NCBI RefSeq assembly: GCF_900112605.1 | Contig: NZ_FOMJ01000004.1 | Span: 1-64,000, forward strand | From: Thiohalospira halophila DSM 15071 | GTDB taxonomy: Bacteria; Pseudomonadota; Gammaproteobacteria; Thiohalospirales; Thiohalospiraceae | Length of the DNA stretch: 64,000 nucleotides | Direction of reading: 5' to 3' | Shown here: piece after piece, positions 1,829-10,354 of the stretch | How the letters are laid out: every line of letters begins with the position of its first letter | Position numbering within the stretch: the first letter of the stretch is position 1 | Notes under the pieces: generated by a model | Told to the model about the DNA's origin: nothing | The model's input: the letters and a program-made list of their open reading frames with translations, nothing else | Databases searched by the model: none | Program-made: the position numbers and the translations under genes

Positions 1829-1845
1829 CACTTTATACCGCAAAA

Positions 1846-2013
1846 TTAACTTTTTGGCATTTTGTTTTTATTAAACAACTGCGCATCATCTTTCACAGCT
1901 TTGCGCAATGACTGTTCAGACAATTGGCTGGCGCTTTTCTTTGCCTGCTGATCCAGTGCGAACTTGAACTCTTTCTCTGTTTTTATATTATTTTTACTTT
2001 GTTCGTGGCTCAT
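1846..2013 (-). CDS. Lysine-rich 55-residue protein of the AT-rich island
   Basis: This short frame starts MSHEQSKNNIKTEKEFKF and ends NKNKMPKS before TAA. The ATG overlaps the TGA of the upstream gene by four bases (ATGA at 2010-2013), and GGGAGAAAACCTT precedes it as a ribosome site. The coupling and the shared AT-rich composition argue that it is a real gene. It is strongly charged, with about eleven lysines, and probably largely helical (KFALDQQAKKSASQLSEQSL). It has no cysteine, signal peptide or membrane segment. No family is recognised. It could be a partner, antitoxin-like or effector protein of the membrane-anchored GAF-like protein. Confidence 0.6.
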   Translation of the reverse strand: MSHEQSKNNIKTEKEFKFALDQQAKKSASQLSEQSLRKAVKDDAQLFNKNKMPKS

Positions 2014-2963
2014 AAGGTTTTCTCCCTTAAGAGGTACAAGCGGTGCTCAAGCGTAAGGCGAACCGAGTAATGGTCGATAATCCACTCATATAACTCAAGA
2101 TGCTTTTCTCGCAGGCAACATTGTTTGTCTCCCGCAATGGTTAGGACAAGCACGACTTCTCTCGTGGACGGATCCACAACAGGATAGCACAGCTGTGAGC
2201 CCTGTTCATCATCCCTATTGTGTAATTTTAGATACCGCCTATCTTGTTTTTTTCTTTTTTTAACTTCCTTATTGATATCCTCGACTATTACTGTCCTTTT
2301 GCTTCTAATGCTGTTCATCACAGTGCTTCCTGGGTGTGCCAGGTCGCTTTCGGATGCCCTTGGTGGTCGCTCAGGAGGGTAGAATTGAGCCCATTCAATC
2401 GGCTTTCCCTCCTCAACAGTCAAGAGCCCCACGCGGAAGTAAGCGCCTGTATTATCAATAAAATCAAAAGCGCCATGGACAGCTGACACCAAGAGTCCAA
2501 TTTGTTGATCGGGCTGCGTGATACTTTGAAACACATCCTGCGCACTTACTTCTTCGCGTCTGCCGATCGAATCAAGGGTTCTACAAAAGCGCTTCATTTT
2601 GTCGCCCACAACAACGTTGACAGAGTGCAAAATGGCAAGGACATCGTCTCGCCCAAGCTCCCTCCCCGGTTTTGAGTAATTCTCAATTGCGCCATAAATA
2701 CTTTTTAGTATTACTATATACAAATAGGCGCCAATCAAAACAAGCAGAGCGGAGTCATCTAAAAATCCTGCAACCTCACTGCCAAACAACCGGGTGATTT
2801 CTGATTGCACCCCCTCTCTCATGGTCGCCCATGTAACAAGGCTTGGCGGCATCAGAAAAAACACAGGACGAAGAAAATTCTTCACAAACCAATGTTCGGC
2901 GAATCGAACAAACGCGCGACATATTTGCCGCAGCCTGTTATCACCAGCAACTGGATTCCGCAT
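2010..2963 (-). CDS. Membrane-anchored GAF-like sensor protein (317 aa), AT-rich island
   Basis: The ATG at 2963 follows an excellent ribosome site (TAGGGGAACAGTTA). The frame could begin at a TTG at 3011, adding 16 residues. Two hydrophobic segments near residues 31-48 and 71-92 should anchor it in the membrane. A linker follows, then from about residue 150 a GAF-like fold: an aromatic strand (YFRVGLLTVEEGKPIEWAQF), a helix-strand unit (GSTVMNSIRSKRTVIVEDI) and a final strand (REVVLVLTIAG). Four cysteines (the single ones in RFCRT and QLCYP, and the CC pair in QCCLRE) are candidates for redox or metal sensing. AT-rich codon use unlike both neighbours indicates transfer. There is no output domain, so signalling probably passes to the coupled 55-residue protein. 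The GAF assignment is by pattern only. Confidence 0.65.
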   Translation of the reverse strand: MRNPVAGDNRLRQICRAFVRFAEHWFVKNFLRPVFFLMPPSLVTWATMREGVQSEITRLFGSEVAGFLDDSALLVLIGAYLYIVILKSIYGAIENYSKPGRELGRDDVLAILHSVNVVVGDKMKRFCRTLDSIGRREEVSAQDVFQSITQPDQQIGLLVSAVHGAFDFIDNTGAYFRVGLLTVEEGKPIEWAQFYPPERPPRASESDLAHPGSTVMNSIRSKRTVIVEDINKEVKKRKKQDRRYLKLHNRDDEQGSQLCYPVVDPSTREVVLVLTIAGDKQCCLREKHLELYEWIIDHYSVRLTLEHRLYLLREKTL

Positions 2964-3056
2964 TAACTGTTCCCCTACACTATTTGCGGAATTTTTGTAG
3001 TTGAGCGCCAAAAAGCCTAGCTTGGCCGCTGACGAAGCCTGCGACGACGAATTCCG

Positions 3057-5460: not shown

Positions 5461-6684
5461 TCAGCCCAGCAGCCGATTGAGGTCGAAGTCCCACTTGCGG
5501 GGGTCTTCGTAGGCGGCGATGTGGTCCTCGTGGAAGCCGGGATTGGCCAGGTCGATGACCTCCGGCTTGATCAGGCTGTGGGTATGGGTGTTGAAGAAGA
5601 CCTTCACGGTGGGATAGAGGATCTTCTCGCCGGGGTCGAGGACCACCGCCAGCCGCCCGCTCTCCATGCGCACCAGGGTGCCGGCGGGATAGATTCCCAC
5701 GCACTGGATGAAGTGGTGGACCACCTCCTCGCGGAAGTGGCTGCGGCTCCATTCCAGCATGCGGCGCAGGACCAGGGTCGGGTGCTCGCCGCGATGGTAG
5801 CAGCGGTCGGAGGTGATGGCGTCGTAGACATCCACCACCGCCGCCATCTGGCCGTAGGGGCCGATCTCGTCCTCGCGCAGGCCGTTGGGGTAGCCGCTGC
5901 CGTCCCACCGCTCGTGGTGCTGGGCGATGACCTCCAGGGTGGGGGCCGGCAGGTCGGGCAGATCGCCCACCATCTCCAGCCCCAGGGTCACGTGGCCCTG
6001 CATGACCTGGTATTCCTTCTCGGTCAGCGCGCCGGGCTTGGTGAGGATGGCCTCGGGCACGCGCGCCTTGCCGATGTCGTGGAGCAGGCCGCCGAGGCCG
6101 AGCTGGTAGATGATCTCCGGGTCCGGCTCCTGCGCCCGGGCGTAGGTGACCAGGAGCACGGCCACGGAGATGGAGTGCTCGAAGGTGTAGTGGTCCACCC
6201 GGCGGATCTGGCCGAGGCTCAGCAGCGCGTTGGGGTTGCGGAAGATGCTCTCCATGATCCGCTCGGCCACCGGCTCCACCCGGGCCAGGTCCACCTGCCG
6301 ACCCAGCCGGACATCCTGCATGACCTTCTCCACCACGCCGGTGGCCTCTTCCCGCACCGGCCGCGCCGCCGCCAGCTCCTCGTCCACCTCCACCCGGCGC
6401 TGGCGGAGGATGTCCGTCCGGGGGTGGGCTGCCTGGTGGGCGTCCAGCTCGGCCTGGAGGCGCGCGGTCTCCTCGCGCTGCTCCTCCGGGTTCTCCGGCA
6501 GGCGCTCGGCCCGATCGGTGTCGACGACCACCTCGCGGATCCCCAGGGCCCGGATCCGGTCGATATCATCCTGGCTACGTAGCAGGAACTGGCTGCGCAG
6601 GAAGGGGTGCTTCAGCCACGACATCTTCAGGTCGTGGATGAACATCCCCGGTTCCAGCTCCCGGGTGTCGATGGTTGTAAGCAT
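5461..6684 (-). CDS. HD-GYP domain cyclic-di-GMP phosphodiesterase
   Basis: The ATG at 6684 is preceded by AGGGAGGGCGGC and gives a 407-residue protein. The N-terminal 100 residues (IDTRELEPGMFIHDL) match the DUF3391 domain usual in this family. The HD-GYP domain carries LLHDIGK (HD at 202-203), HH at 256-257 and DGSGYP at 261-266, so metal binding and catalysis should be intact. The product should degrade c-di-GMP, probably to GMP. The C-terminal 80 residues form a small beta-rich extension seen in these proteins. Its 3' end lies nine bases from the end of the convergent EAL gene, which puts two unrelated phosphodiesterase types side by side. Confidence 0.92.
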   Translation of the reverse strand: MLTTIDTRELEPGMFIHDLKMSWLKHPFLRSQFLLRSQDDIDRIRALGIREVVVDTDRAERLPENPEEQREETARLQAELDAHQAAHPRTDILRQRRVEVDEELAAARPVREEATGVVEKVMQDVRLGRQVDLARVEPVAERIMESIFRNPNALLSLGQIRRVDHYTFEHSISVAVLLVTYARAQEPDPEIIYQLGLGGLLHDIGKARVPEAILTKPGALTEKEYQVMQGHVTLGLEMVGDLPDLPAPTLEVIAQHHERWDGSGYPNGLREDEIGPYGQMAAVVDVYDAITSDRCYHRGEHPTLVLRRMLEWSRSHFREEVVHHFIQCVGIYPAGTLVRMESGRLAVVLDPGEKILYPTVKVFFNTHTHSLIKPEVIDLANPGFHEDHIAAYEDPRKWDFDLNRLLG

Positions 6685-9463: not shown

Positions 9464-10354
9464 ATGCAGCTTGGTGCCCACGTCTCCGCCGCTGGCGGCA
9501 TCGAGAACGCCCCGGATCGGGGCAAGGCCATCGGTGCGGACTGCATCCAGGTCTTTACCCGTAACCAGCGTCAGTGGAAGGCGAAGCCGGTGACCAACGC
9601 GGAGGCGAAGGCCTTTCGCGAGCACCGGTCAGCCGACGGCATCGGCGCGGTGATGAGCCACGCCTCCTATCTGCTGAATCCCGGCACGCCGGACCCGGAC
9701 AAGCGCGCCAAGACCGTGGGGGCGCTGGAGGCGGAGATGGAGCGCTGCCACCAGCTGGGGATCGAGTACCTGAACTTCCACCCCGGGGCGCACACCGGCG
9801 CCGGCGAGGAGGCGGGGCTGGACAATATCGCCGGGGTGCTGGACGAGGTCTGCGCCAACCACCCGGACAAGCGGGACGTGACCCTGGTGCTGGAGAACGT
9901 CGCCGGCCAGGGCAGCACCCTGGGCAAGAGCTTCGCCGAGCTGCGCGCCATCCTCGAGCGGGTCTTCGAGCCGGATCGCTTCGCCGTCTGCATCGATACC
10001 GCCCACGCCTTCGCCGCCGGCTACGCCCTGCATACCGAGGAGGGCTGGGAGGCCATGTGGGAGGAGTTCCACCGCGAGCTGGGGATGGACCGGCTGGTGG
10101 CCTTCCACCTCAACGACTCCAAGGTCCCCTTTGACTCCCGCAAGGACCGCCACGAGCTCATCGGCCGGGGTTATATCGGGGCAGACGCCTTCCGCCGGCT
10201 GGTCACCGATCCCCGTACCCGGGATATCCCGGGCTTCCTGGAGACCCCGGCCGGGGAGGCCGGCTGGGCCGAGGAGCTGCGCTGGCTGCGGGCGGTGGCG
10301 GCCGGGGAATCGCCGGCGCTGCCGGAGATCGAGGACGCCGGGATCAATCTCTAG
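9464..10354 (+). CDS. nfo: Deoxyribonuclease IV (AP endonuclease, Nfo family)
   Basis: A full-length (296 aa) member of the xylose-isomerase-like TIM barrel endonuclease IV family. It cleaves 5' of abasic sites in base-excision repair using three zinc ions. Family blocks are present: MQLGAHVSAAGG at the start, NFHPGAHTG, LVLENVAGQG, CIDTAHAFAAGY and FHLNDSK, then HELIGRGYIG, which together supply the His/Glu/Asp metal ligands. The ribosome site GGAGGTTCCCC sits just before the ATG. It ends seven bases short of the convergent neighbour. Confidence 0.97.
   Translation: MQLGAHVSAAGGIENAPDRGKAIGADCIQVFTRNQRQWKAKPVTNAEAKAFREHRSADGIGAVMSHASYLLNPGTPDPDKRAKTVGALEAEMERCHQLGIEYLNFHPGAHTGAGEEAGLDNIAGVLDEVCANHPDKRDVTLVLENVAGQGSTLGKSFAELRAILERVFEPDRFAVCIDTAHAFAAGYALHTEEGWEAMWEEFHRELGMDRLVAFHLNDSKVPFDSRKDRHELIGRGYIGADAFRRLVTDPRTRDIPGFLETPAGEAGWAEELRWLRAVAAGESPALPEIEDAGINL

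Follow-up and report, generated by a model that had tools for sequence, protein, structure and literature searches.

Cap1, an effector of type III-A CRISPR systems, has a pair of transmembrane (TM) helices and a ligand-binding domain that form a ligand-opened pore, leading to growth arrest during phage infection (PMC12642688). PycTM, the small TM effector of Pycsar, is proposed to damage the membrane upon a nucleotide signal. Integrons and tRNA hotspots are established stores of defence systems: of 179 integron cassettes from V. cholerae, at least 16 had activity against phages according to a review (PMC12409362), and tRNA loci account for 18 of the 41 hotspots with defence genes that were mapped in E. 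coli (PMC10121019). Such figures give base rates for these places and are no proof for the pair analysed here.

In this study, we analysed two overlapping genes, one large and one small, in a 64,000-nucleotide stretch of the Thiohalospira halophila genome (hereafter the window), together with nine homologous loci, all from Gammaproteobacteria and with identities as low as 16%. The large protein resembles Cap1, by analogy only, in carrying predicted paired TM helices and a ligand-binding domain in one protein; whereas Cap1 uses a CARF-like domain that binds cA4 and works with CRISPR, the pair has a GAF domain, a small partner and no nucleotide synthase. Its likeness to PycTM lies in the plan of a small TM effector, but the PADLOC match to PycTM comes from a single relative (locus L018; TM2 and stalk, E 0.0021, 16.5 bits), so that 1 of 10 members matches and the window protein is not among them, and a cyclase gene is absent beside the pair. 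The PycTM and PD-T4-4_B matches in relatives are short or confined to TM and stalk (E 0.002–0.01), and we discounted them as homology. More generally, the window proteins match no listed family in PADLOC-DB 2.0.0, and their relatives give only weak, short or partial matches. With the integron defence cassettes (PMC12409362) the pair shares the form of a small self-contained unit, as seen in the integron cassette at L018. The literature searched contained no report of the pair's family and nothing matching a combination of GAF and membrane defence. The pair is a rare, previously unnamed unit, its GAF sensor and small coupled partner not being described in that literature.

An AT-rich insert in the T. 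halophila chromosome

The minus strand of an AT-rich stretch holds both genes, and the features to which we refer are as follows.

1829..3056, no strand assigned: foreign AT-rich insert; edges approximate, with GC shifts at about 1801–1830 and 3001–3056
2964..2982, minus strand: leader of the large gene with its Shine-Dalgarno sequence, TAGGGGAACAGTTAATG
2010..2963, minus strand: large gene, 317 aa, placed by ORF, homologue alignment and Shine-Dalgarno sequence; its product has a cationic N-terminus followed by two predicted TM segments, then a helical stalk and, at the C-terminus, a GAF domain
1846..2013, minus strand: small gene, 55 aa, lysine-rich, no TM segment; an ORF whose start overlaps the stop of the large gene (ATGA), with its own Shine-Dalgarno sequence AGGGAG

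The initial annotation had described an AT-rich cassette of two genes overlapping by ATGA in GC-rich surroundings, and this description holds, with both ORFs confirmed on the minus strand and a GC content of about 45% against about 70%. In a 1.2-kb scan, the segment at 1801 has the lowest GC in the window (0.449), and the remainder of the 64 kb has a mean of 0.696 (SD 0.030, minimum 0.608). Third-position GC tells the same story, at 0.47 for the large gene and 0.45 for the small one versus 0.97 for the EamA gene and 0.95 for a GGDEF-EAL gene, both neighbours of the pair. The flanks are also as first described, namely a broken RND gene, an EamA gene and a nearby IS end. To the right of the insert stands an apparently intact EamA transporter gene (303 aa; the version in one relative has 309 aa); its left flank is a frameshifted piece of an AcrB-type RND efflux gene, whose Pfam match (ACR_tran, 1.5e-13) is limited to 73 positions close to the end of the model, and the contig edge is the end of an IS3-type transposase. 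The RND debris and the transposase end thus locate the insert in a decayed, variable stretch.

No direct or inverted repeats flanking the insert were found in the window, and no attC-like site was seen by eye in its flanks. In the comparison for an empty site, EamA was clearly common to just one relative, whose downstream gene differs. A sequence at the left edge of the insert, TGTCAGGGACTTGACAC at 1815–1831, is similar to TGTCAAGGAAGTTGGCAC, the end of the IS3-type element at 320–337; a second copy of it is absent from the window, and it is possibly a solo IS end. Within the insert region, Rfam returned no matches, and a scan for promoters and terminators did no better than chance.

A pair sitting amid gene debris beside an IS end could be a decayed passenger that is now functionless in T. 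halophila. We regard this as very improbable, given that both frames are intact, ribosome sites are present and the GAF motifs are conserved.

The GAF protein and its small partner

The longest reading frame of the large gene, which was the one first described, spans 2010..3011 from a TTG start and encodes 333 aa. The frame is real and lies on the minus strand, but its start probably needs revision: in the alignment, homologues begin at residue 17 (M17) of the 333-aa reading, and AGGGGA stands about 8 nt 5' of the ATG at 2963, which together argue for ATG 2963 over TTG 3011 and for a product of 317 aa. Residue numbers given here count from TTG 3011. Across the 10 members, the invariant residues (V135, K138, F161, P167, Q170, S229, D245, G271, S272, C275, P277, R318, E322 and L325) fall in the stalk and the GAF domain. 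The four cysteines once singled out as a feature do not survive comparison, since the 333-aa reading has five and only C275, within GSxxCYP, is invariant in the family. By hydrophobicity, every member has one clear TM segment, and several have a weaker second one. The cationic N-terminus suggests an N-in/C-in topology, with the GAF domain in the cytosol.

The GAF-like C-terminal domain proposed at the outset is, as modelled, a real GAF fold. The sequence match to Pfam GAF_2 (PF13185; E 9e-4) scores 19.9 bits, under the gathering score of 28.6, and the profile matches 1 of 10 members at E 0.01. An AlphaFold2 (AF2) model, for which five family members were the input, is confident over all residues past about 160 except for one loop, with the GAF part mostly at pLDDT 75–92, and the VIA-align structure comparison matches this part to many GAF domains at Z 12–14.6, the nearest folds being free-methionine sulfoxide reductases (fRMsr), PDE GAFs and sensor-kinase GAFs. 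The model is poor over the first 123 residues, and with the TM region at pLDDT below 50 it lends no support to a pore.

Comparison with known GAF proteins shows how far the large protein departs from them. It shares fold and motif order with GAF_2 sensors (Z 14.5 to the stand-alone GAF sensor 5hl6), but it scores below Pfam gathering, and its GAF domain is terminal, without kinase, cyclase or transcription output. The best structural match of the GAF part is fRMsr (Z 14.6), yet identity in the structural alignment is at most 16%, and the large protein is membrane-anchored with the single invariant cysteine C275. The fRMsr enzyme uses several cysteines. A T4-type class III holin T was also considered, prompted by weak Foldseek matches in BFVD (E 0.015–0.06), as in it, too, an alpha/beta domain comes after a TM segment; holin T has one TM segment and a periplasmic domain, and this candidate was rejected with no sequence signal to gpT (hhalign probability 0.1). 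Searches of the window proteins against NCBIfam, PADLOC and PHROG gave nothing credible, and a PDB sequence search found no related solved structure. The large protein is thus, by these searches, in no curated family beyond GAF, and the concern that it might belong to a well-known family with a different partner proved unfounded.

GAF domains are commonly small-ligand sensors, and the nearest folds would suit an accessory pair for signalling or stress regulation, in which a GAF receptor of redox, nucleotide or metabolite state signals via the small protein to the host, outside defence. Such a role seems unlikely for a protein without an output domain and without a linked regulator or enzyme, conserving one cysteine only and distributed in a patchy and mobile fashion.

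Conservation of the small frame had been named as the point on which the pairing would stand or fall. In the window and in 9/9 other loci, 10/10 in all, the large gene overlaps at its end with an ORF of 51–74 residues, and both genes occur together throughout; in every copy the product of this ORF is a short, charged protein of non-membrane type. Per locus, the probability of such an overlapping ORF arising by chance is 0.01–0.19 when the downstream DNA is shuffled, and Fisher combination across eight independent loci gives about 1e-5. Most small ORFs are preceded by a Shine-Dalgarno sequence. Judged by codon substitution between relatives G421 and G405 (dN 0.27, dS 2.24), the small ORF is under purifying selection; the two Shewanella copies (dN 0.07, dS 0.14) are less informative.

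At the protein level, homology of the small partner can be demonstrated within subfamilies only. The Smith-Waterman score of the window and Shewanella proteins was reached by 0/400 shuffles, which marks them as homologous, although BLASTP found no match between them. The Salinisphaera protein groups with these (p 0.01–0.03), the two most divergent copies (G528 and G575) are weakly alike (p 0.02), and an NSS[KR]xQLK motif is evident in G421, G405 and Methylotuvimicrobium; similarity between these three groups is not significant. Divergence of the small protein tracks that of the large one (r 0.83, 0/5000 permutations), as expected of any linked pair. Queried alone against plasmids, the small protein matched solely the Shewanella record, where it sits with its large partner. 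AF2 predicts a single helix over residues 3–50 (mean pLDDT 77.7, pTM 0.35), which may be the default for a charged peptide.

Distribution on mobile DNA

The family is rare and patchy. Relatives occur in Shewanella baltica OS223 (42% identity), Shewanella algidipiscicola, Salinisphaera shabanensis, a gammaproteobacterial MAG and Methylotuvimicrobium buryatense, and four more share the family of Methylotuvimicrobium, with identity down to 16–18%. Presence amounts to 3/369 genomes of the class, 5/237 in the Methylotuvimicrobium family and 1/118 in the genus Shewanella, and among 398 genomes of the phylum only the window's own carries the large-gene family. Phage records and four scans of viral contigs contained no relative, and we rejected the reading of the pair as phage genes on that basis.

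The pair is horizontally mobile, being found on a plasmid, in an integron cassette and in tRNA-side islands. The S. baltica copy is carried by the MOBF/MPF_F conjugative plasmid pS22303. In G575 (locus L018), the pair occupies the first cassette next to the integrase gene of an integron (TIGR02249, 2.8e-130), and the cassette ends in a 99-nt attC at 9699–9797 with paired TTCTAAC/GTTAGAA ends, whose single-stranded fold has an energy of -33.1 kcal/mol (z -7.2). Integrase and attC thus make the pair the entire cargo of one cassette. The frame of the small protein extends into this attC site, and a second integron cassette at L018:9784-10551 encodes an unrecognised 255-aa protein.

Four copies are located downstream of a tRNA gene and share its strand: tRNA-Met at 107 bp, tRNA-Thr at about 235 bp, tRNA-Lys at 320 bp and tRNA-Asn at 103 bp. 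At the tRNA-Thr, -Lys and -Asn loci, the DNA match to congeners ends at the tRNA or within about 80 bp past it. By a rough estimate that assumes about 45 tRNAs, 350 bp each and a 4.5-Mb genome, finding four of nine chromosomal loci next to a tRNA in this way would have a chance probability of order 1e-8. The G405 pair is the one at tRNA-Lys, and in a congener this tRNA-Lys has a tyrosine recombinase beside it. G405 also has, at another place, a 54-bp copy of the end of its tRNA-Lys between type-F transfer genes (TraU/TraN) and another integrase (for these observations, L016:4102-6300, L035, L036 and L037). This arrangement suggests, without proof, one or more conjugative islands at the G405 tRNA-Lys, perhaps in tandem. 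In L015, tandem copies of an 8-bp repeat (GAGCTAAG) occupy positions 5642-5809, just 3' of the pair, and run up to the contig end.

These settings bear on two further explanations. As a protein of inner-membrane type that is carried by a conjugative plasmid and perhaps also by a type-F transfer island in G405, the large protein could be a factor for entry or superinfection exclusion, or another form of membrane interference, that shields its carrier element; the stand-alone integron cassette and the tRNA-side copies, which have no transfer genes in the stretches seen, make this improbable. Overlapping genes, one of them small and charged, on a plasmid, in islands and in an integron cassette could also be an addiction pair of the toxin-antitoxin kind that stabilises these elements, with a growth-inhibiting membrane protein neutralised by a small cytosolic protein, or the reverse. 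We consider this explanation somewhat unlikely, as a ligand-sensor domain in the large protein would be unusual among such toxins. Moreover, toxin-antitoxin cassettes usually have their own promoter, and the roughly 40 bp between the cassette boundary and the large gene in L018 leave little room for one.

Some copies have defence-type neighbours. In S. algidipiscicola, the gene directly 5' of the pair on the same strand (L006:511-1257) encodes a KilA-N protein whose C-terminal half is BstA-like (PADLOC 1.6e-20). In M. buryatense, the next genes match the PADLOC candidates PDC-M41A (7e-88) and PDC-M30B (3e-112), alias TcmP and a radical-SAM mobile-pair-like protein; with a possible ribbon-helix-helix/MazF-like pair, these make up a stretch (L009:9285-11933) that looks, by its gene content, like a small defence island. 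On pS22303, the gene 5' of the pair has only a sub-threshold Mrr-like match (E 0.008), and no recognised defence gene was found near the remaining loci. Nor was a ligand-producing enzyme or a regulator coupled to the pair seen in the loci. The mobile setting proposed at the outset was a reasonable reading, and the expectation of a conserved pair in variable loci is borne out, with some defence-type neighbours; its companion, that homologues co-occur beside mobile or defence genes, stands for the constant pairing and the mobile settings but not for several loci that lack a recognised defence neighbour.

Proposed role of the pair

We tentatively favour a model in which the large protein is a GAF-gated, two-TM membrane effector or sensor that acts with its coupled regulatory small partner in phage defence. 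The membrane effector is favoured because neither protein has another output domain and the TM region is the only other feature of the large protein; the defence role is favoured because of the genomic setting, integron cassettes and tRNA hotspots being rich in defence. Mobile settings carry non-defence cargo too, which counts against this reading. A bolder version is possible but doubtful: the pair would be a new anti-phage system, spread through integrons, plasmids and tRNA-side islands as a minimal unit of two genes, and its GAF-gated membrane effector would be restrained or enabled by a lysine-rich helical protein translated along with it.

From these features, we infer the following course of events. 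The large protein would probably form a dimer or higher oligomer in the inner membrane, its GAF domain facing the cytoplasm. A small ligand within the cell, newly present or altered in phage infection or stress, would bind in the GAF pocket, and binding would be relayed via the stalk to the two TM helices, altering membrane permeability or growth, a logic like that of Cap1 or the Pycsar TM effectors. The translationally coupled small helical protein would be made in step and might bind the stalk or the GAF domain as an inhibitor or adaptor. On this model, the likeliest role of the pair would be phage defence through abortive growth arrest.

In summary, an evidently selected two-gene unit fits into a 1.2-kb cassette and recurs in places where phage-defence genes gather. 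The comparative evidence validates a short overlapping ORF of a kind that annotation can miss, and the small size of the pair makes for easy testing. If the pair is defensive, GAF, a very common ligand-sensing domain, would join the sensors that are coupled to membrane effectors.
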